NCBI RefSeq assembly: GCF_016411865.1
Contig: NZ_JAEKJA010000015.1
Coordinates: forward strand, 124,001-188,000
Reading direction: 5' to 3'
DNA from: Acuticoccus mangrovi
Lineage (GTDB): Bacteria > Pseudomonadota > Alphaproteobacteria > Rhizobiales > Amorphaceae
DNA: 64,000 nucleotides
In this document: positions 3,235 through 14,619 of the stretch, in pieces
Layout: each line of letters begins with the position of its first letter
How positions within the stretch are numbered: position 1 is the first letter of the stretch
Made by a program: the position numbers and the translations under genes
The notes under the pieces: generated by a model
What the model saw: the letters and a program-made list of their open reading frames with translations, nothing else
The model's database searches: none
Told to the model about the DNA's origin: nothing

Positions 3235-4701
3235 TCAGCCCGCGGCGATCAGCTCTTCGAGACATTGGGTGGTCCAGTGGCCGACGTCGTCTCGCGCGAC
3301 GCTCGCGATGAGCGCGCGGTGCCGCTCGCGCCGCTCCCGCAGCGGCATCGCGAGGGCCCGCTCGATGGCACTCGCCAAGCCGTCCGCATCGCGCGGGTCG
3401 ACGACGAGGGCGGCCTCCATCGCCTCCGCCGCGCCGGCGAAACGGGAGAGGACGAGCACGCCGGGGTCGTCGACGTCCTGGGCCGCGACGAACTCCTTGG
3501 CGACGAGGTTCATGCCGTCGGCGAGCGGCGTCACCAGCCCGACGTCGGCGTGGGCCATGAGGTGGGCGACCGCACGCCGCCCGTAGGGTCGCGTCAGAAG
3601 CTGCAGCGGATGGCGCGAGAGCGAGCCGAACTCGCCGTTGATGCGCCCCGCGAGCGCCTCCACCTCCTGCCGGAGGTGGGCATAGGCCGAGACCGAGCCC
3701 CGCGAGATCGGTGCGATCTGAGTCAGCACCACCTCGTCCGCCCGCGCGGGGTCGGCCGCGAGGAAGGCGCCGAACGCGGCGAGCTTTTCCGGCAGCCCCT
3801 TCGAATAGTCGAGCCGGTCGACGCCGAGGATGGCGCGGCGGCCGCCGAGACCGTCGAGATAGGCGCGCACCTCCGGCGGCGTCGGGGCGTAGAGCTCGCC
3901 CCGCAGGGCGCCGACGTCGATGCCGATGGGCAGCGCCTTGATGCGCACCCGCTCGCCGAACGCGCGCACCTCGATCACGCCCGGCCGGTTGAGCACCACC
4001 CCCTCCCCCAGCCCGGCGACGGCTTCGGCGAGGCGCGCGGCGTCCCGCGCGGTCTGCACGCCGATGGTGTCGAAGTGCATCAGCGCCTCGGCGAGCCGGC
4101 GCGCTTCGGGAACCGCGCGAAAGGCGGCGGGCTCGGGAACCGGAATGTGGAGAAACAGGCCGAGCGTCGACCCGACGCCCGCCTCCCGCAGCATTTTGCC
4201 GAGAAGCAGGAAGTGATAGTCGTGCACCCAGACGAGATCGTCGGGCCCGGCGATGCGGGCGGTCGCCTCCGCATAGGCCCGGTTGACCGCCGCGTAGGCG
4301 CGGAACTCGGCGGGGCGGTGCACCGCGAGGTCGGAGCGGCCGTGGAAGACGGGCCACAGAAAGGCGTTGGCGTATCCCTCGTAGAAGCCGCGATAGTCGT
4401 CGGCGGGAAGGTCGAGGAGGCTGTAGACGACGTCGTCGACGGTGGTGGCGGTGACGTCGGGCTCGGTCCCGTCGGCGATCGTCTTGCCCGACCAGCCGAG
4501 CCAGGTGCCGCCTTGGGCCGTCAGCGCGTCGCTGAGCGCCGAGGCGAGGCCGCCGGGCGACACCCCCTCGGAGGGCCGCGCGACGCGGTTCGACACGGCG
4601 ATGAGCCGCCCTTCGATCTCGACCTTCTGATGTCGGGCCGGGCGGACCGCTGGAATGGCCTCGACGAAAAGAGAATTCTCAACGCCCAGCATGACCACCA
4701 T
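3235..4701 (-). CDS. otsA: Trehalose-6-phosphate synthase
   Basis: A 488-residue GT20 enzyme that joins UDP-glucose and glucose-6-phosphate into trehalose-6-phosphate in the cytoplasm, the first step of the OtsAB route to the protectant trehalose. Family landmarks appear in order: RLIAVSNRV near the N-terminus, LVWVHDYHFLLLGKMLR, FLHIPVPEP, GVDRLDYSKGLPEKL, QIAPISRG, GLVTPLADGMNLVAKEF and a C-terminal HWTTQCLEEL. Length is normal for the family. The ATG at 4701 has an AGGA about 10 bases upstream; a second in-frame ATG lies three codons downstream. It starts only 47 bp after the end of ligD on the same strand, so it may be read through from the Ku-LigD block. No otsB is present nearby. Confidence 0.95.
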   Translation of the reverse strand: MVVMLGVENSLFVEAIPAVRPARHQKVEIEGRLIAVSNRVARPSEGVSPGGLASALSDALTAQGGTWLGWSGKTIADGTEPDVTATTVDDVVYSLLDLPADDYRGFYEGYANAFLWPVFHGRSDLAVHRPAEFRAYAAVNRAYAEATARIAGPDDLVWVHDYHFLLLGKMLREAGVGSTLGLFLHIPVPEPAAFRAVPEARRLAEALMHFDTIGVQTARDAARLAEAVAGLGEGVVLNRPGVIEVRAFGERVRIKALPIGIDVGALRGELYAPTPPEVRAYLDGLGGRRAILGVDRLDYSKGLPEKLAAFGAFLAADPARADEVVLTQIAPISRGSVSAYAHLRQEVEALAGRINGEFGSLSRHPLQLLTRPYGRRAVAHLMAHADVGLVTPLADGMNLVAKEFVAAQDVDDPGVLVLSRFAGAAEAMEAALVVDPRDADGLASAIERALAMPLRERRERHRALIASVARDDVGHWTTQCLEELIAAG

Positions 4702-4748
4702 CCGATTATATTCCTGTCATACGTAAACGCATGAACGGGCGGTTCGGT

Positions 4749-7337
4749 TCAGCTGGCGTTCACCGCCGTCTTCACATCTTTCCCGCGCAATCGCTGTCGC
4801 ACCGCGCCGACATCCTTCCACGAGTCCTGCGTCAGGGTGTCGCCCACATGGAATGGGGCAGGCGTCTCGAGCTTTTCGAGGGCCTCCCACGTCAGGGGGC
4901 CGGCGAAGGGCGCCCCTTCGCGCGCGCGGGTCGAATAGGGGGCAACCGCCGACGCCTTCAGGTCGTTGCGCAGATAGTCGATGAAGATGCGCCCCTTCCG
5001 CTTCGCCTTGCTCATGTTGATGAGGTAGCGGTCGGGAAAATCCCCGGCGAGGCCGGCGGCGACCCAGCGCGTCCAGGCCTTCGCCTCGGCCCACTCCACC
5101 CGGCGCTCGATCGGCACCATGACGTGGAGCCCCTTGCCGCCGGTGGTCTTCACGAACGCGGCAAGGTCCATATCCGCGAGGCGCTCGCGCAGCACGAAGG
5201 CGGCGTCGCGCACCGCGGCGAAGGCGACCCCCTCGCCCGGATCGAGATCGAAGACCAGCCGGTCGGGCCGCTCCGGCCGATCGACCCGCGCCCCCCGCAC
5301 GTGGATCTCCAGAACGCCCCGCTGCACGAGCTCGATGATGTCGGCGGGCTCTTCGGCGACGATCGCGAGGCCGTCGTCCTCGCCGATGTCGCGGGCCATG
5401 CGCTCGGGCAGCCCTTCGGGGTGACGCTGGTAGAAGCACGCCTTGGCCCGCCCCTGCGGACAGCGTACGAGCGTCAGCGGCCGACCCGCGACGTGCGGCA
5501 GGAGGAGCGCCATGTGCCGCTCGTAGTGGGCGGCAAGCGCCGCCTTGGTCACGTTCTGCTCCGGATAGAGCACCTTGTCGGGGTGGCTGAGGGGGACGTC
5601 GAACACGGTGGTCGCCATCGGCGTCTCCTTGTTTGCCGCGCCGTCCGGCCGGCCGGCGGAGCGGCGCGCGGGGGAAGCGGCGACCCGGTCGGTCTCGGTC
5701 GCCGGATGGTCGGAGGGAAGGCTCACCTCCTGCGCCGGAACGCCACTTTCGCCGACAAACACCGCATGACGCAGCATGCCCTCGTCGGTCATCGCGAGAT
5801 AGGCGACGTCGACGACAAGGTCCGGCCGCACGAAGCGGTTCCCCCGCCCCGTCAGCTTCTGCGCGAAGGGTGAGCGCCGGGTGGCGCGCTCCCGAAGCGC
5901 GGCGAGCAGGCGCTTCGCATCGCTCGCCGAAAAGCCCGTGCCGACGCGACCGCACGGCACGAGCCGGTCGCCCGCATGGGCGCCGACCACGAGGGCGCCG
6001 AGGCCACCATTCTCGCCCACCGTGTAGGCGCCGACGACGAAGGGGGCCTCGCGTACCGCCCGCACCTTCACCCAGCCGTCATGGCGGCCGGAGCGATAGG
6101 GGCTTCCCGCCTTCTTGGCGATGATCCCTTCGAGCCCCAGCGCTTCGGCATGGGCGAAAAGAGCCTCCTGCTTGTCGGCGACGTGATCGCCGTAGCGGAT
6201 CCGCCCCAAACCTTCGACGAGCGCGGTAAGACGCTGCTTGCGCGTCTCGATCGGCTCCTCGCGCAGATCCTCGCCGTCGACGAAGAGGGCGTCGAAGGCG
6301 ACGTAGACCGCGCCGTCGGCCCCATCACGGAGACTGCGCTGGAGCGCGCCGAAATCGGACCGGCCGGCATCGTCGAACACCACCACCTCGCCGTCGAGCA
6401 TCACGCCGCGCTCGGCGAGGCGGCCGGCCTCGTCGGCGATCGCGGGAAATCGGTCCGTCCAGTCCTTGCCGGTGCGGGTGAGGAGCGCGACCCGCCCCTC
6501 GGCGGCGCGCAGGATCATGCGGTAGCCGTCATACTTCACCTCGGCGAGCCAACCCTTGCCTCTCGGCACGCTCTTGCGGCTGCGGCAAAGGGCCGGCGCC
6601 ACGAAGCGCGGCACCGCGGGAGAAGACTTCGCCGCGCGCTCGGCGGGGCGCTCCGCGTTCCTCCGTCGATCCTTGCCGGCTTGGTCGGGCGCCCCGTTCT
6701 TCCTGTCCTTCCCGGCATCAGGGTCGGGGTCGGCACTCCTCGCGATCTCGGCGAGGGTGCGACGGGTGACGACGGAGCGGGTGAAGCGCTCGGTGACGGC
6801 GCGCCCCGTCCGCCGAGCCTCCTCGTCGTCCACCTTGATGAGGAGCCATTGGGGCGGGCGCCCCTTCTCGGGCTTCATCCGCTCCAGATGCCAGCGCCCC
6901 TTGAGGCGCTCGCCGTGGAGCACGAACGACAGCGAGCCGGCGGCGAGGCCGTCGGCGGCATCCTTGCCGTCGGCCATCTCCCAGGTGCCCTCGTCCCACA
7001 CCATCACCGTGCCACCCCCGTAGGCATCGGCCGGAATGGTGCCTTCGAAGCCCGCATAATCGAGCGGGTGGTCCTCCGTCTCCACCGCGAGGCGCTTGTC
7101 GGCGGGGTCGAGGCTCGGCCCGCGCGTCACCGCCCACGACTTCAGGACGCCGTCGTGCTCGAGGCGGAAGTCGTAGTGGAGGCGGCTCGCGTCGTGCTTC
7201 TGCACCACGAAGCGCGGCAGGCCGGCGGAGCGGCGGCCCCGCTTCGGGCGAGGCTCGGAGGTGCGATCGAAGTCGCGCTTGCTGCGGTATCGATCGAGGC
7301 CGGACACATCGACGCGGGACACATCAACGCCGGACAC
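4749..7337 (-). CDS. ligD: Multifunctional NHEJ DNA ligase D
   Basis: An 862-residue protein with the three LigD activities: 3'-phosphoesterase (about residues 40-190, with KHDASRLHYDFRLEHDG and an EDHPLDYAGFEG loop), ATP-dependent ligase (about 245-560, nucleotidyl lysine K268 in the motif KYDGYRM) and a C-terminal primase-polymerase (about 575-850, with VLYPEQNVTKA and the metal-binding FDLDPGEG). The order phosphoesterase-ligase-polymerase is common in proteobacteria. With Ku it repairs double-strand breaks without a homologous template. The first codon is GTG, directly abutting the Ku stop. Two more in-frame GTG codons follow at 15-base intervals because the first codons are a tandem repeat, so the exact start is uncertain. 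Confidence 0.96.
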   Translation of the reverse strand: MSGVDVSRVDVSGLDRYRSKRDFDRTSEPRPKRGRRSAGLPRFVVQKHDASRLHYDFRLEHDGVLKSWAVTRGPSLDPADKRLAVETEDHPLDYAGFEGTIPADAYGGGTVMVWDEGTWEMADGKDAADGLAAGSLSFVLHGERLKGRWHLERMKPEKGRPPQWLLIKVDDEEARRTGRAVTERFTRSVVTRRTLAEIARSADPDPDAGKDRKNGAPDQAGKDRRRNAERPAERAAKSSPAVPRFVAPALCRSRKSVPRGKGWLAEVKYDGYRMILRAAEGRVALLTRTGKDWTDRFPAIADEAGRLAERGVMLDGEVVVFDDAGRSDFGALQRSLRDGADGAVYVAFDALFVDGEDLREEPIETRKQRLTALVEGLGRIRYGDHVADKQEALFAHAEALGLEGIIAKKAGSPYRSGRHDGWVKVRAVREAPFVVGAYTVGENGGLGALVVGAHAGDRLVPCGRVGTGFSASDAKRLLAALRERATRRSPFAQKLTGRGNRFVRPDLVVDVAYLAMTDEGMLRHAVFVGESGVPAQEVSLPSDHPATETDRVAASPARRSAGRPDGAANKETPMATTVFDVPLSHPDKVLYPEQNVTKAALAAHYERHMALLLPHVAGRPLTLVRCPQGRAKACFYQRHPEGLPERMARDIGEDDGLAIVAEEPADIIELVQRGVLEIHVRGARVDRPERPDRLVFDLDPGEGVAFAAVRDAAFVLRERLADMDLAAFVKTTGGKGLHVMVPIERRVEWAEAKAWTRWVAAGLAGDFPDRYLINMSKAKRKGRIFIDYLRNDLKASAVAPYSTRAREGAPFAGPLTWEALEKLETPAPFHVGDTLTQDSWKDVGAVRQRLRGKDVKTAVNAS
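7293..7337 (-). repeat. Three tandem 15-bp units at the ligD start
   Basis: Three consecutive units close to GTGTCCGGCGTTGAT open the ligD frame (7337-7323, 7322-7308, 7307-7293), encoding VSGVD, VSRVD and VSGLD. Each unit starts with GTG, so each offers a possible initiation codon. Units differ at one or two bases. Confidence 0.8.
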
Positions 7338-8270
7338 CTAGGCGCTTCTCGCCTGCCGCGTCCGCCCGCCGGAGGACTTCGCCGGCGTCTTGGCATCGCG
7401 GCTCGCCGTCTTGCCACCGCTCGCGCCCGCCGAGGCCTTCGACGAGGACGCGCCGGAGCGGCGGGCCGACTTGCCCTTCTTCGAGCCCGACCCGTCCTCG
7501 AGGCTCGCCTTGAGCGCATCCATGAGGTTGACGACGTTCGACGCACCGCCGTCCTTGCCGCCCTTCGGCGCCGCCACGCGCTTGCCCTTCAGCTTCTTGT
7601 CGATCAGGGCGCGCAGCTCCTCCTGGTAGCGGTCGACGAAGGAATCCGGGTCGAACTCCCCGGCGCGGGCGGTGATGAGCTGCTCGGCCATCTCCACCTG
7701 GTCCTTGGAGGCCTTCACCTCCTCGATGTCGTCGAAATAGGTGTCCGCCTCGCGCACCTCGTCGGCCCAGCGCAGGGTTTCGAGAAGGAGGCCACGGCCG
7801 CATGGCTGGATCGCCACGATCCGCTCCCGCTTTGCGAGCACGATCTGGCCGAGCGCCACCTTCTTCGCCCCCCGCAGCGCGTCGCGGATGGTGACGAACG
7901 CCTCGGTGGCGATCGCTCCGTCGGGCGTCACGAAATAGGGGCGATCGAAGTAGATCGGGTCGATGTCGGCGAGGTCGACGAAGTGGGTGAGGTCGACGGT
8001 GTGCATCGATTCGATGTCGAGCGCGTCGAGCTCCTCGTCCTCGATCGGGACGTATTTGCCGCGCTCGTACTCGTAGCCCATCACGATGTCGTCGCGGTCG
8101 ACCGGCCCCTCGTCCGGCACGACATTTTGCTGGCGCACCCTCTCCCCGCTCTCGCGGTGGATGCGGTGGAGCGAGATGCGGTCCGTCGACGTCACCGCCG
8201 CATAGAGGCGGATGGGGAAGGAGACGAGGGCGAGGCGGATGTGGCCCTTCCAATAGGCGCGCGGCGCCAT
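7338..8270 (-). CDS. ku: Ku family DNA end-binding protein
   Basis: A 310-residue bacterial Ku homologue that binds broken DNA ends as a homodimer and recruits LigD. It opens with the typical APRAYWKGHIRLALVSFPIRL and contains SLHRIHRESGERVR and the core EELDALDIESMHTVDLTHFV. The last 50 or so residues form a Ser/Ala/Gly/Lys-rich basic tail (GSKKGKSARRSGASSSKAS and onward), like the lysine-rich extensions that help Ku bind DNA. The gene sits 7 bp downstream of the small Rho_N-like gene and ends immediately before the ligD GTG, so the three are almost certainly one transcript. Confidence 0.96.
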   Translation of the reverse strand: MAPRAYWKGHIRLALVSFPIRLYAAVTSTDRISLHRIHRESGERVRQQNVVPDEGPVDRDDIVMGYEYERGKYVPIEDEELDALDIESMHTVDLTHFVDLADIDPIYFDRPYFVTPDGAIATEAFVTIRDALRGAKKVALGQIVLAKRERIVAIQPCGRGLLLETLRWADEVREADTYFDDIEEVKASKDQVEMAEQLITARAGEFDPDSFVDRYQEELRALIDKKLKGKRVAAPKGGKDGGASNVVNLMDALKASLEDGSGSKKGKSARRSGASSSKASAGASGGKTASRDAKTPAKSSGGRTRQARSA

Positions 8271-8277
8271 GGCGGCC

Positions 8278-8553
8278 TCAGTGGTTGCGCAGGGCGTCGA
8301 CGAGCTCGCCCTTTTTCATCTTGGAGCGGCCGTCGATGCCGATCTCGCGGGCGCGGTCGTAGAGCGCGTCGCGGGTCCACTCCTCGTAGGGGGGCGCCTT
8401 GCCGCCGCGCTTGAAAGGCTTGTCGCCGCGCGCCTTGGCGTTGGCGATGCGGGCGGCCTTCTCCTTGCTTGCGCCGTCGCGGCGAAGCGCTTCGTAGGTG
8501 TCGTCGTCCTTGACGGTGGGGCCGGGATCCTTCCGGGTCGCGCGTTTCACCAT
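8278..8553 (-). CDS. Small Rho_N/SAP-like protein upstream of Ku
   Basis: A 91-residue basic protein. The N-terminal half (TVKDDDTYEALRRDGASKE, then KAARIANA) matches short proteins often annotated as uncharacterised near bacterial ku genes. The C-terminal half (LYDRAREIGIDGRSKMKKGE and on to VDALRNH) has the pattern of a Rho-termination-factor N-terminal or SAP-like helix-extended-loop-helix, usually a nucleic-acid-binding module. The ATG at 8553 is preferred because AAGGA lies 9 bases upstream; an in-frame ATG at 8592 would add 13 residues without a better site. As first gene of the NHEJ block it may assist Ku or LigD at DNA, but that is inference from position. Confidence 0.75.
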   Translation of the reverse strand: MVKRATRKDPGPTVKDDDTYEALRRDGASKEKAARIANAKARGDKPFKRGGKAPPYEEWTRDALYDRAREIGIDGRSKMKKGELVDALRNH

Positions 8554-8615
8554 GGCGGTCGATCCTTCGCTGACGGGCGGAGCGGTCGACATCCGTTCCG
8601 CCGGAACGAATCACC

Positions 8616-8641
8616 AACGCAAATCGCCGCCGCGACGTTCC
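8616..8641 (-). promoter_or_regulatory. EcfG-type general stress promoter for the NHEJ block
   Basis: On the minus strand GGAAC (8641-8637) is followed after exactly 17 bases by CGTT (8619-8616). This matches the alphaproteobacterial EcfG/RpoE2 consensus GGAAC-N16/17-CGTT. The expected start of transcription lies near 8608, giving a leader of about 55 bases before the ATG at 8553. A perfect 15-bp palindrome (CGTTCCG-C-CGGAACG, 8594-8608) covers the predicted start site. It implies stress or stationary-phase control of the Rho_N-like gene, ku, ligD and perhaps otsA. Confidence 0.65.
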
Positions 8642-8649
8642 GCGGAAAG

Positions 8650-10092
8650 TCAACCCCCGCTCGCCGTCTCCGGTTGCTCCGACAAAGGCGTGCTCGCGAA
8701 TTCCGTGTCGAGGTGACGGGTGAGGATCTCGCCGTAGCTCGGGCTCCTCAGAAGCGACTGGATCGCCCTGTTCAGCCGTTCGCGCAGCTGGTCGTCGCCC
8801 TTGCGCACGGCGATGGCGGCGCCGCGCGAGAGCTCCATGGTGCGTTGCGCGGAGGTGGCGAAGCGGAACGGCTCGCCGAGCGGCGTCGACAGGAACTCGC
8901 GCTGCGCCGTCAAGGCCGGCGCCAACACCGCGTCGAGCCGGTGGAGAGCGAGATCGACCCACATGCCTTCCGAATTCGGATAGAGCCACACCGTGTTGGG
9001 CGGACGGAACGTCGAGATCAGATAGTCCGCCTGCGGGGTCCCGCTCACGGCGGCATAGACGGCGCGGTCCTCCGCCTCGAGGTCGTTCACGGCGGCCTTC
9101 GGCACGACGTAGCGCATCGACAGGCGGACATAGGGGTCGGTGAAGTCGACCTCGTCGGTGAGCTGCTGGTTGCGGGCGAGCGCGGCGACGGCGGCGTCGA
9201 TGCGCCGCTCGCGCAGGGCGGAGAGCACGTCGTCGGCGGCGAGCGGCACGAGCTGGCAGGTCGCATCCATGATCGAGCAGAGCGCGCGGGCGACGTCGAC
9301 GTCGAAGCCGGCGCGCACGCCGAAACGTCCGGCGGATGAGAAGGGCGGCGCGTCGTCGAGCACGCCGATCCGGTAGGAGAGCGACGTGGTCGCCGCGGCC
9401 GAGGTCGTCGGCGTGAGGCCGAGACCCAAGGCGGCGGCCGCTGCCGCGGCGGCGGGCGACGGGGCCGTCGGCACCGCCTCGGCCGGCGTGGCGGCGGGCG
9501 TCTCGCCTGCCGCGGGCGCCGCGGGCGATGCCGCCGCCGTGCCCGCCGCACCGTCGTCCTCGTCCTGGAGCGGCGTCTCTTCGAGCGCCACCGCCGGCGC
9601 AGCCGTCGGCCCATCGACCGCGGACGGCGTGGTCGCCGCCGCCTCGTCCGCGGTCGCCGGCGTCGTTCCGCTCGCGGCCTCGCCGACGGCGGATGGCGTC
9701 GCTTCGCTCGCCGCCTCGGTGGTCACGGCCGGCGCGCCGCTCGGGGCGGGGGCGGTCGCGGCGGCCTCCCCCTCGTCGGAGGCGGTGGTGGACGGCGGAT
9801 CGACCGCCTCGGCATCCGCCGTGGACGGGGCGCTCGGCACCACCGCGGTGGGATCGGCCGTGTCCCCCTCCTCTTCCGCCGACGCCTCGCCCGCGGGAGC
9901 CGGGGCTATGGGCTCGGCTACACCGTCGGCCGGCACGGTCGGCGTCCCAGCGGTCGGCGTCCCAGCGGACGGCGTCACGGCTGGCGACGTCACGGCGGTG
10001 GGGGCCGCTTCGTCGTCGGCGAGCGCCATCGGCGGCGTCGCGATCAGAGCGACGGCCAATAGAGCGGTCAGCGTCCGCATCGATCCCCTCAT
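8650..10092 (-). CDS. Family 3 periplasmic binding protein with very long N-terminal linker
   Basis: The C-terminal 240 or so residues are a family 3 (amino-acid type) solute-binding domain: YRIGVLDDAPPFS, GFDVDVARALC, ALRERRIDAAVAALA and FTDPYVRLSMRYVVPK. Ahead of it is a signal peptide (MRTLTALLAVALIATPPMALA) and about 210 residues of Ala/Thr/Pro/Glu sequence with no lysine, arginine or cysteine, presumably disordered in the periplasm. The ATG at 10092 has GAGGGG seven bases upstream; a GTG at 10107 overlapping the previous stop (GTGA) and an ATG at 10080 are alternatives. No permease or ATPase accompanies it. Its partner gene encodes a family 1 binding protein, and the divergent neighbour is a mechanosensitive channel. 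Ligand unknown. Confidence 0.85.
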   Translation of the reverse strand: MRGSMRTLTALLAVALIATPPMALADDEAAPTAVTSPAVTPSAGTPTAGTPTVPADGVAEPIAPAPAGEASAEEEGDTADPTAVVPSAPSTADAEAVDPPSTTASDEGEAAATAPAPSGAPAVTTEAASEATPSAVGEAASGTTPATADEAAATTPSAVDGPTAAPAVALEETPLQDEDDGAAGTAAASPAAPAAGETPAATPAEAVPTAPSPAAAAAAAALGLGLTPTTSAAATTSLSYRIGVLDDAPPFSSAGRFGVRAGFDVDVARALCSIMDATCQLVPLAADDVLSALRERRIDAAVAALARNQQLTDEVDFTDPYVRLSMRYVVPKAAVNDLEAEDRAVYAAVSGTPQADYLISTFRPPNTVWLYPNSEGMWVDLALHRLDAVLAPALTAQREFLSTPLGEPFRFATSAQRTMELSRGAAIAVRKGDDQLRERLNRAIQSLLRSPSYGEILTRHLDTEFASTPLSEQPETASGG

Positions 10093-10103: not shown

Positions 10104-11288
10104 TCACATCGCCTCGCGCTCGGCCTGCGCGACCTGATCCAGGATGATCTTCATCGTCGCGTCGGCCTTGACTTCGCCGCGCACCATTGCCCGCACCGCG
10201 TCCGCCACCTGATCGGCGAGATCGAGATAGGCGATCCCGAAGCGGCGCACCGGCGGCGGCACCAGCCTATTCATGTGGCTCGCGATCGTGGCGAAGACGG
10301 GGCTCACCGCGAGCAGCTCCTCGTCGTCGTAGAGGGCGGGACGGGTCGGGGCGAGGCCGTGGTCGATCGCGGCGAGGCGCTGCTCGTCCGGCGAGGCGAG
10401 GAAGGTCGCGAGCGCCTTGGCGCTCTCCTGGTTGGCCGAGTGGCGCGACACGCCGACGAACCAGGTGGTCGCCATGATCGCCTCCGCGTCGGCGGCATCC
10501 TCCGCCGGCGGGCGCAGGAGTATCGACATCACGTCGGCGATCGGCGAGCCGACGAGGCTCGGCAGCGCCGTGGAGCGAGCGAGCAGCGCCGCGCTGCCGC
10601 CGCCGGTGAACTCGGCGAGCGCCTCGCTGCCCGTGGTGCTCGTCGCCGCGGCGGAGGTGATCACCCCGACGGTGTCGTTGAGCGCCTGTAACGCCACGAG
10701 CATGCGCGGCTCGTCGTCGAGCCCCTTGGCGCCGAAGCTGTAGGCCCAGTCGACGAAGAGGGGAAAGAGCGAGGCGCCGGCACCGCCGAAGGCGAGCTTG
10801 CTCGCCTCCTCCCCCGGCGCCTGCAGCAGGCTCTCGCGCAGCTGCGTCCACGCCTCCGGCCCTTCGCTGATCTGATCGGAGCGCAGGAACAACAGCGTGA
10901 TCGCCATGTGCTGCGGCAGCCCGACCACCCGGCCGGTGCTGACGGCGACGTCGCTCACGGCCGGCAGCGCCGCTCGGGGGTCCGCTTCGTTGGCGAGTGT
11001 CGAAAGGTCGCTGGTGAGGGCCGGCGCCCAGGCATCGGGAAACTGAATCACGTCGATCCGCGGGCTCGATACGGAAAAGAGCGCCCGGTATCGCTCGAGC
11101 GCGCGCCGGTCCGTGGCGTCGGCCGACACCACGCGCACGGTGTGGCCGGTCGCCTCCTCGAAGCGGGCCGCCGAATCCCGGCACGCCGCCACGGCACGGC
11201 CCACATCGAGACACACGAGAGTGAGAGAATCGGCCCGTGCCACCCCCCCGGCAATGACGAAGAGCACGGCCGCCAGAACGAAACGCAT
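10104..11288 (-). CDS. Family 1-type extracellular solute-binding protein
   Basis: A 394-residue exported protein with a cleavable signal (MRFVLAAVLFVIAGGVARA). The mature part has the SBP family 1 layout: RFEEATGHTVRVVSAD at the first beta strand, IDVIQFPDAWAPALTSDLS, a region resembling GQNVAFGGAGASLFPLFVDW and a late SANQESAKALATFLASPDEQ, where sugar-type receptors carry a similar helix. The ATG at 11288 has AGGGAAG six bases upstream; earlier in-frame codons lack a site. The stop overlaps the GTG of the downstream binding-protein gene, so the two are co-transcribed. No membrane components are linked, so a sensing role rather than transport is possible. Confidence 0.85.
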   Translation of the reverse strand: MRFVLAAVLFVIAGGVARADSLTLVCLDVGRAVAACRDSAARFEEATGHTVRVVSADATDRRALERYRALFSVSSPRIDVIQFPDAWAPALTSDLSTLANEADPRAALPAVSDVAVSTGRVVGLPQHMAITLLFLRSDQISEGPEAWTQLRESLLQAPGEEASKLAFGGAGASLFPLFVDWAYSFGAKGLDDEPRMLVALQALNDTVGVITSAAATSTTGSEALAEFTGGGSAALLARSTALPSLVGSPIADVMSILLRPPAEDAADAEAIMATTWFVGVSRHSANQESAKALATFLASPDEQRLAAIDHGLAPTRPALYDDEELLAVSPVFATIASHMNRLVPPPVRRFGIAYLDLADQVADAVRAMVRGEVKADATMKIILDQVAQAEREAM

Positions 11289-11511
11289 GAACACTTCCCT
11301 TCGATGGCAGTCAGCTGATGCCGAGGCACGATGGCCTGCGACCCGGATCGGCGGCCGCCGGCGCACGCCGCGACCCCGCTTATTGTCTCCTCAGGCGCAG
11401 CGTCTTATACGCCGTGCTGCCCGCGCCTCAAGCCGACACCATCGTGAGCGGGCGGCAACGCCCGACGTTCCCGTCGCAGAGCGACGACCCGAAAAGCGTG
11501 ACGAGCCTTGT

Positions 11512-14500
11512 ATGCCGCGTATCTCGTGCATTTTTCTCTTTCTTCGACTGATCGGCGCCGCCGTTGTCGCAGCCACGCTGACGTTCGCCGGCGCAGCGGC
11601 CGCGCAGGACGTCGACCTCGTGAAGCTGCGCCGCTCGGTGGCCGAGGCGCAGCGTGACGCGCGCAATCTCGACATCGCGATCGAGCAGCGCGCGGCGGAG
11701 AACCAGCGCCTCGCCGACGCGCTCGACGTCGCCGACGTCCGCGAGCCGGTGACCTTTGCCGAGCTGCGCCAGGCGAAGTTCGAGGTGGACATCGCCCGCA
11801 CGCGCCTTTCCACGCTCGACCACAGGCTGAGCGAGCAGATGGCGATGATGGGGGACCTCAACGCCGAGATCATCCGCCTCACGTCGAGCAACACGGGCGC
11901 GGCGGACACGCTGAAGCGCGTCGTCGAAGAGGCCGCCCTCGACTGGCGCTCGCGCCTGCGCGACATCGAGAACGACATGATCGGCAAGCTCACGCGCTTC
12001 CGCGAGCTGTCGGCCGAATATCTCTATCTGCGCCAGGAAGAGCTGCAGATCCTGCAGAGCGAGATCAGCCTCGACGCGATCACCGGGTCGGAGGGGGGCA
12101 AGGCCGACCCGATCATCGCCCGGCTGCGCGATCTCGTGACCCAGCTCTCGCGCACCGCGATGCAGCTTTCCAACGACGCGGCCAGCATCGAGACCTCGAC
12201 GCCGGCCGCCGTCGAGCGGCGCAACCTGCTGCGCCTGCGCTCCGACGAGCTCCTGTTGCGCTCCACCGCGCGCCTCACCGACATCGTGATCGTGGAGGCG
12301 CAGAACGTCATCGACGGCGTGCGGCCGATGATCGACGAGCCGGCCGTGCCGATCCGCCTGTTCAACGAGGCGATCGGCGCGGTGGACGATGCCTCCGACG
12401 ACCTCGGCGCGCGTCGCTCCATCATCTCCGACAATCAGACGGCGCTGCAGGACTTCAACCGCTTCCTCACCGAGCCCGGTAACCTGCAGCAGGCCGCGAC
12501 GGGCCAAACCAACCGCATCCAGGCGCTGCGCCGGCTCCTCGAGACGCAGGACCGCGAAATCGGCGAGCTGCAGGACCGGCTCCTGTCGGTGCGCGACGCG
12601 CTGGTGAAGGAGCGCGCGGCGCGTCAGCGGGCCGCCCTCCTCCAGCGCGAGGTGGCGCGCACCGACCGCGGCGCCCGCGACCGCATCGCCGCCGAGATCG
12701 CCGACATTCCGAGCGAGCTGACACGCATCTACTCGGCCCGCGTCGCCGAGGTCGAGACGGCGATCGTGGTCGCCGACAACGAGCGCTTCGCCGTGCTCGC
12801 CGGAGCCCTCCTCGTCGTCCTCGCCCTCACCCTGTGGCTGCGCCAACGCGTGCTGCGCCGCTTCGTCGCCTCGCGCGCGACGCGGGCCACCGAGGTCCCC
12901 ATCGAGGTCCTGAGGCGCAACCTCTTCTGGCTGTTTCCGGCGGCGGTGTGGGGCATCTTCTGCGCCACCTTCGCGATCTCGCGGTCGACGGCGGTGTCGG
13001 TCTTCACGCTCCTGATCATCCCCGCCGCGGCGGCGCTGCTGCGCGACCTGACGCAGGTCATCGTCGCCCACTCCACCGAGGGGCGGAAGCGGCGCATCGG
13101 CATCATCATCACCCGCTCCACCGAGGTGGCGATGGTGGCGACGGCGCTCGTCGTCTTCGTCTACGTGGTGCTCGACGAGGTGCCGCTGCTGCCCTCGACG
13201 CAGACCGCCATCGACCGCCTCGCCTACTCGGTGTTCGTGCTGAGCGGGCTGCCGATGCTGCTCTTCGTGTTCGTCTTCGCCAACACCGGCAGCAACAGCG
13301 CCTACGGCAAGGCGCGGCGCTTCATCGCCGCCGTCCTGTCGCTGCTGCCGCCCGTCGCCCTCATCGCGACGGGCGTCACCGGCCTCGCCGGCTACACCCA
13401 GCTCGCCAACATCATGCTGGAGAATCTCGGCATCGCCATCGCCATCGCGGCGACGCTCGCCCTCATCCTCGGTGTGCTCAACGACATCATCGAAGGGATG
13501 GCCGAGACGATCCGCGAGAAGGACCCGGCGCGCGCCTACTTCATGCGCTCCAACTTCCTGCAGCCGCTCAACCGGCTGCTCCAGGTGCTTCTCGCCCTCG
13601 TCGCGATCGCGGTGGCGGCGCACATCTTCGGCTGGTCGCAAGAAACGCCCGGGATCAGCCAGCTCGTCGAGGTGTGGCGCACCACCGTCTTCAGCGTGGG
13701 CGGACAGGGCTACAGCATCGGCAACGTGCTGATCGCGACAGCGGCGTTCGTCTTCGTGTTCTGGGCGGCAGCCTGGACGCGCCGCGTCGCCTACACGGTG
13801 ATCTTCCGCCACCTGAAGGACATCGGCATCCGCCAGAGCCTTTCGGTGTTCGCCCAGTATGTGGTGATCGTGCTCGGCGTGCTCCTCACCCTGTCGGCCG
13901 TCGGCTTCGACGTCACGACGCTCACGGTGTTCGCCGCCTCCCTCGGCGTCGGCATCGGCTTCGGCCTGCAGAACGTCGTGAACAACTTCATCTCGGGCCT
14001 GCTCCTCCTCGTGGAGCGCCCGTTGCGCCTCGGCGACATCGTGACGGTGGGAGCGAACTCCGGCACGGTGAGCCAGATCGGCATCCGCTCGATGCGCCTC
14101 ACCACCTTCGACGAGTTCGACCTCATCGTGCCGAACTCGGCGCTGATCTCGGACACCTTCACCAACTGGACGCGCACCAACAGCCAGATGCGCGTGCTGC
14201 TCACGGTGGGGATCGCCTACGACAACGATCCGGAAGAGGCGATCAAGATCGTCTACGAGATCCTGAAGGAGCACAAAGGCGTGCTGCGCTCGCCGGCGCC
14301 GATGGTGACGGTGGAGGAGTTCGCCGATTCCTCCATCAACCTGCGCGTCTGCTACTATATCGACCTGCGCGGCAACTACTCGGGTTTCGTCGTCAAGAGC
14401 GAGGTGCTGTCGGCCGTGTGGCGCCGGTTCGCCAAGGCCGGGATCACCATCCCCTTCCCGCAACGCGACCTGCACATCATCAATCCGTCGGGCGCAGCGC

Positions 14501-14619
14501 CCGCGGCAGTGCCGAGCCAGACGGTGCCCGAGCGACCCGAGAGCGCCCACGGCGAGTGGGTGGGCGACGCCATCGAGCTCGCCCAAGAGAACGCCAGCCA
14601 GGAGAGCGCCAAGGAGTAG
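11512..14619 (+). CDS. Large MscS-family mechanosensitive channel with periplasmic coiled-coil domain
   Basis: A 1035-residue inner-membrane channel of the MscK/DUF3772 type. A signal peptide (residues 1-31) is followed by a helical, coiled-coil-rich periplasmic domain (about 32-420), then around ten hydrophobic segments from about 427 to 830. The MscS core is clear: pore helix TLTVFAASLGVGIGFGLQ near 803-820, NVVNNFISGLLLLVERPLRL, beta domain GDIVTVGANSGTVSQIGIRS and DEFDLIVPNSALISDTFTNW, and the C-terminal vestibule to about 990, with a hydrophilic tail. Such channels open on membrane tension and relieve hypo-osmotic shock. The ATG at 11512 was chosen because it begins the signal peptide; its ribosome site is weak. 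It is divergent from two orphan binding proteins across a 223-bp gap. Confidence 0.93.
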   Translation: MPRISCIFLFLRLIGAAVVAATLTFAGAAAAQDVDLVKLRRSVAEAQRDARNLDIAIEQRAAENQRLADALDVADVREPVTFAELRQAKFEVDIARTRLSTLDHRLSEQMAMMGDLNAEIIRLTSSNTGAADTLKRVVEEAALDWRSRLRDIENDMIGKLTRFRELSAEYLYLRQEELQILQSEISLDAITGSEGGKADPIIARLRDLVTQLSRTAMQLSNDAASIETSTPAAVERRNLLRLRSDELLLRSTARLTDIVIVEAQNVIDGVRPMIDEPAVPIRLFNEAIGAVDDASDDLGARRSIISDNQTALQDFNRFLTEPGNLQQAATGQTNRIQALRRLLETQDREIGELQDRLLSVRDALVKERAARQRAALLQREVARTDRGARDRIAAEIADIPSELTRIYSARVAEVETAIVVADNERFAVLAGALLVVLALTLWLRQRVLRRFVASRATRATEVPIEVLRRNLFWLFPAAVWGIFCATFAISRSTAVSVFTLLIIPAAAALLRDLTQVIVAHSTEGRKRRIGIIITRSTEVAMVATALVVFVYVVLDEVPLLPSTQTAIDRLAYSVFVLSGLPMLLFVFVFANTGSNSAYGKARRFIAAVLSLLPPVALIATGVTGLAGYTQLANIMLENLGIAIAIAATLALILGVLNDIIEGMAETIREKDPARAYFMRSNFLQPLNRLLQVLLALVAIAVAAHIFGWSQETPGISQLVEVWRTTVFSVGGQGYSIGNVLIATAAFVFVFWAAAWTRRVAYTVIFRHLKDIGIRQSLSVFAQYVVIVLGVLLTLSAVGFDVTTLTVFAASLGVGIGFGLQNVVNNFISGLLLLVERPLRLGDIVTVGANSGTVSQIGIRSMRLTTFDEFDLIVPNSALISDTFTNWTRTNSQMRVLLTVGIAYDNDPEEAIKIVYEILKEHKGVLRSPAPMVTVEEFADSSINLRVCYYIDLRGNYSGFVVKSEVLSAVWRRFAKAGITIPFPQRDLHIINPSGAAPAAVPSQTVPERPESAHGEWVGDAIELAQENASQESAKE

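Follow-up and report, generated by a model that had tools for sequence, protein, structure and literature searches.

A predicted EcfG-regulated DUF7218-ku-ligD repair block and a linked, apparently separately promoted trehalose-synthase paralogue in Acuticoccus mangrovi

Stress control of NHEJ and trehalose genes in related bacteria

EcfG-dependent ku and ku-ligD genes have already been published in sphingomonads, and NHEJ and trehalose synthesis are each known, separately, to be stress-controlled. In Sphingomonas melonis Fr1, ku depends on EcfG and carries the site GGAACGACTCTTTCTCCCATGAATT 30 bp upstream (PMC6599016). The ku-ligD genes of Sphingopyxis granuli TFA belong to the EcfG general stress regulon; the AAC of the −35 box is almost invariant in Sphingopyxis, GGAAC and GCAAC being the two most frequent −35 boxes of its general stress response promoters (PMC7083833). 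In Bradyrhizobium diazoefficiens, otsA and otsB are under EcfG (PMC8092242).

The locus analyzed here lies on the minus strand of a 64,000-nucleotide stretch from Acuticoccus mangrovi (the window). It begins with a gene of 91 codons (8278..8553) for a small protein with a DUF7218 domain (PF23855) and a sub-threshold Rho_N match (PF07498), which is tightly followed by ku (7338..8270; PF02735, TIGR02772) and ligD (4749..7337). Profile matches to Pfam and NCBIfam assign a Ku domain to the former product and phosphoesterase, ligase and polymerase domains to the latter, as is expected of NHEJ proteins. Beyond a spacer of 47 bp lies otsA2 (3235..4701; PF00982), a divergent second trehalose-6-phosphate synthase paralogue. 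Four congeneric genomes (G002-G005) share the order mscS, two solute-binding-protein genes, DUF7218, ku, ligD and otsA. The nearest named relative found was Acuticoccus yangtzensis (L062). The large MscS-type channel gene (11113-14619, plus strand) is divergent from the solute-binding-protein genes (10104-11366, minus strand) and adjoins the block throughout the genus. MscS channels are members of published EcfG regulons; no good EcfG site was seen for this channel gene.

A conserved EcfG-type site ahead of the DUF7218-ku-ligD block

The preliminary description of this DNA had reported GGAAC-N17-CGTT upstream of the Rho_N-like gene, ku and ligD. We confirmed this site on the minus strand at 8641..8616 (GGAAC at 8637-8641, CGTT at 8616-8619), where the exact match is GGAACGTCGCGGCGGCGATTTGCGTT. 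Its −10 box lies 62 bp ahead of the block, and the stop codon of the preceding solute-binding-protein gene, which ends at 8650, lies 9 bp before the motif. The site thus agrees with the pattern by which we recognized candidate promoters, namely GGAAC and CGTT at a distance of 16-17 nt within about 150 bp of a start codon. The bare motif is expected by chance about once per 64 kb when spacers of 16-18 nt are allowed, and the exact site about 0.002 times in a given 150-bp stretch of one strand. Across the genome, 62 matches were counted, compared to 65 for the same pattern reversed, which served as a backward control; this count shows no enrichment and was dropped as evidence. Because the bare string is not rare, conservation has to decide whether the site is meaningful. 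The check on related genomes that had been proposed with the site was carried out, and GGAAC-N16/17-nnTT was found at the same place, no more than 150 bp ahead of the DUF7218 orthologue, in all six congeneric genomes. Each of them retains GGAAC and, in the −10 box, TT; this box differs from CGTT in four (GGTT, GGTT, AGTT and CATT). In resampled upstream regions the same pattern occurred at rates of 0.011-0.027 per region, which are not to be multiplied since the congeneric genomes share ancestry. The equal frequency of the motif and its backward control would be in keeping with a chance match at 8616-8641, but its position is kept in all six congeners and the same promoter type precedes DUF7218 genes in other families, which makes coincidence extremely improbable.

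Transcription of the block might alternatively depend mainly on read-through from the solute-binding-protein genes, which lie upstream on the same strand, keep their order in the genus and are separated from the block by no terminator that we could see. This is, however, difficult to reconcile with the alignment of the congeneric genomes, in which 32 of 61 columns are invariant in the intergenic block as opposed to 7 of 171 in the flanks. Moreover, DUF7218 genes of other families have the site and do not appear to require these neighbors. We therefore regard upstream read-through as very unlikely to be the main source of transcripts. A sigma-70 promoter was also looked for, and none was found.

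Conservation reaches beyond the sigma boxes, so that another regulator may also act at this promoter. The sequence TTGAC(A) is kept in the genus 6-7 bp before the −35 box, and directly 3' of the −10 box a near-palindromic element, GGTGATTCGTTCCGGCGGAACG (8594..8615, minus strand), is conserved in the alignment. Genus-wide this element reads GGTGATTCGTTCC(n)GCGGAACG, as judged from the window and the orthologous sites L166-L169, the copy in the window having one extra base. When searched as a gapped pattern, its core was present once per genome in five genomes, and it may represent an operator. Two other roles for these sequences were considered and rejected: folding of the element as an RNA hairpin was no better than that of shuffled sequences, and inspection by eye of the window and of one congener (G004) revealed no CGTT-like box at 16-17 nt that would turn the inverted repeat into a promoter for the reverse direction. 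The extended conservation and the near-palindrome GTTCC(n)GCGGAAC also raise the question of whether the whole block is mainly an operator for LexA (SOS) or another dimeric regulator, GGAAC being merely a part of the inverted repeat. Indeed, GTTGGTGATTCGTTC matches 7 of the 8 fixed bases of the alphaproteobacterial LexA box GTTC-N7-GTTC. The remaining mismatch, however, falls in one half-site, and we rejected it as a LexA box; moreover, other families lack the element, and GGAAC-N16/17-nnTT nonetheless persists there before DUF7218 and ku. An operator as the main function of the block is thus very unlikely, and an EcfG-type promoter remains the preferred reading of 8616-8641.

To define which gene this promoter serves, we compared DUF7218 and ku loci across the Alphaproteobacteria, using the backward pattern as the control for all counts. 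Matches on the opposite strand were judged unsuitable for this purpose because of the partial self-complementarity of the site (GGAACG...CGTTCC) and because divergent neighbors may have sites of their own. An EcfG-type site was found close upstream of 17 of the 18 DUF7218 genes from outside the genus, compared to 1 of 18 for the control. The congener G007 keeps the solute-binding-protein genes, the DUF7218 gene and the promoter site, and lacks ku, a ligD beside the DUF7218 gene and a second otsA. In at least two of the genomes from outside the genus (G036 and G042), ku is remote from the DUF7218 gene or located on another contig. Taken together, these three observations indicate that the promoter at 8616-8641 belongs first to the DUF7218 gene, which is followed here by ku and ligD. 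A literature search for the DUF7218 family in one library gave no paper.

The preliminary description had also proposed that the motif be sought upstream of ku in related genomes, and such sites do precede many ku genes: they were present at 77 of 78 loci in a set consisting mainly of Bradyrhizobium (control 0), at 17 of 26 loci of the order outside that set (control 1) and at 15 of 28 loci drawn class-wide (control 0). A separate count of the first two sets together, with slightly different ends of the searched regions, gave 94 of 104 loci with a site. The Bradyrhizobium-dominated loci (L064-L141) commonly have GGAACCAAAACCC...GGTT about 63 bp upstream of ku; the opposite strand of these regions often matches as well, possibly reflecting divergent ligD promoters. 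A different situation was seen in G006 (L172), a congener in which no DUF7218 gene was detected and which has a different, more distant ku-ligD pair (42% and 39% identity). This suggests that NHEJ was replaced or gained independently in that genome.

The regulators that such a promoter would need are encoded in the genome, which has genes for EcfG, NepR and PhyR with an HWE kinase close by. The region of nepR-ecfG and phyR is where the regulators of the general stress response are usually encoded, and between nepR-ecfG and phyR overlapping GGAAC-N16-CGTT sites occur on both strands (L173, 6378-6404). EcfG control of the Rho_N-ku-ligD block, as it had originally been predicted, thus appears well supported by the conservation of the site in the genus, the presence of such sites at DUF7218 genes and many ku genes across the class, the ecfG-nepR-phyR genes and the published reports that ku depends on EcfG in related bacteria.

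The ligD-otsA2 junction and the second otsA

The preliminary description had further suggested that a single promoter serves the block and, by read-through, also otsA. Such a polycistronic transcript, starting at 8616-8641 and running through ligD, would be favored by the common strand and the 47-bp spacer, as well as by the junction, where no terminator was found in the window or in G004. The last observation implies that some read-through may occur as well. As the main route to otsA RNA, however, it is unsupported, since otsA has its own EcfG-like site directly upstream, and this site is conserved in the five genomes in which the genes are linked. In the window it reads TGAAC-N17-CGTT (4751..4726, minus strand; TGAAC at 4747-4751, CGTT at 4726-4729), with one mismatch to the consensus and a −35 box that overlaps the ligD stop codon. 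In all five linked genomes the spacer between ligD and otsA contains TGAAC or GCAAC-N17-CGTT, with the AAC of the −35 box, the spacing and CGTT kept throughout; in resampled regions, such a site occurred at rates between 0.0003 and 0.014 in each of the five genomes. The spacers of the relatives are longer, about 80-170 bp, and contain the site, which likewise speaks against dependence on read-through. The consensus GGAAC was found in none of the five, each being one base off. GCAAC occurs in proven general stress response promoters of Sphingopyxis (PMC7083833), so that the non-consensus −35 box lowers the claim for this promoter without excluding it. With the site kept in the spacer, AAC near-invariant and GCAAC common in Sphingopyxis, a separate stress-type promoter for otsA2 is the simpler reading of these sequences, and a long transcript from 8616-8641 is unlikely to be the main source of otsA RNA. 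The existence of a separate otsA promoter had been named beforehand among the outcomes that would contradict the single-promoter model, and with a candidate site at the junction in all five linked genomes that outcome is half in hand. The repair block and otsA2 are thus probably switched on side by side and not by one long read-through transcript.

Of the two otsA genes in the genome, the core copy is located on another contig about 2 kb from otsB, while the ligD-linked copy belongs to a clade of its own that is fully supported, has a long branch and stands apart from the core copies. Nine core otsA copies from this genus and its sister genus were examined; no close EcfG site was found at any of them, and three have a weak match 250-300 bp upstream. 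The ligD-linked copy was found only in the genomes whose ku-ligD block is of this type (G000 and G002-G005); outside these genomes, none of 104 ku loci had otsA beside ku, many of them being covered with only 1.5 kb of flank, and the best otsA loci from outside the genus had no ligD beside them. The five otsA2 proteins belong to glycosyltransferase family 20 (GT20) and score 428-493 bits against TIGR02400, compared to 562 for core otsA and a cut-off of 565. In an alignment of five sequences, with otsA2 aligned to a solved OtsA, the columns of the active site are invariant, for which we take the residues to be Y76, W85, D130, H154, R262, K267, R300 and D361 to E369 in E. coli numbering. The otsA2 product is likely to make trehalose-6-phosphate.

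A general-stress module and its relation to known systems

We consider it likely that an EcfG promoter drives the DUF7218/Rho_N-ku-ligD genes and that otsA2 has a promoter of its own at which this sigma factor also acts. Under stress, PhyR would titrate NepR, and the EcfG thus freed would direct RNA polymerase to start at 8616-8641, giving transcripts of the DUF7218/Rho_N gene and then of the closely packed ku and ligD, from which the NHEJ proteins would be made. For otsA2, the same sigma factor would act at the ligD-otsA junction, and read-through would contribute at most in addition. The sites and their conservation, the gene order and the regulator genes are observed directly; sigma-factor binding, start points, induction and a benefit to non-growing or dry cells are what we infer from the sequences. 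More tentatively, and with the balance tilting against it, the fast-evolving otsA2 might be the dedicated general-stress copy of the genus, co-inherited beside NHEJ as part of a doubly promoted module, with DUF7218 as a conserved protein of the general stress response that acts together with NHEJ. A single stress module would then unite end-joining with a drying protectant.

The locus thus offers a concrete, testable case in which template-free break repair and trehalose synthesis may be parts of a single programmed response in alphaproteobacteria that are not growing. Judged by sequence, the comparisons also suggest that the general stress sigma factor targets DUF7218 almost universally within the order, and that EcfG-type promoters precede ku in many families beyond the few strains studied. 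The parts are known; their arrangement and the almost universal presence of such a promoter at DUF7218 genes are, as far as we know, new.

Among the described systems, S. granuli TFA resembles this locus in that its ku-ligD genes are EcfG-linked, with the promoter GGAAC-N16-CGTT and a flexible −10 box, and differs from it in that the accessible part of the report mentions neither linkage to otsA nor a DUF7218 gene at the head (PMC7083833). S. melonis Fr1 likewise has an EcfG-dependent ku gene, and its regulon also includes trehalose genes, which carry other gene numbers; these, however, belong to the malto-oligosyltrehalose route to trehalose and are not adjacent to ku (PMC6599016). In B. diazoefficiens, as apparently in Acuticoccus, the trehalose-6-phosphate pathway is tied to the general stress response; the available text on that organism mentions no NHEJ linkage, whereas in Acuticoccus the candidate stress-type promoter sits on a second otsA paralogue (PMC8092242).
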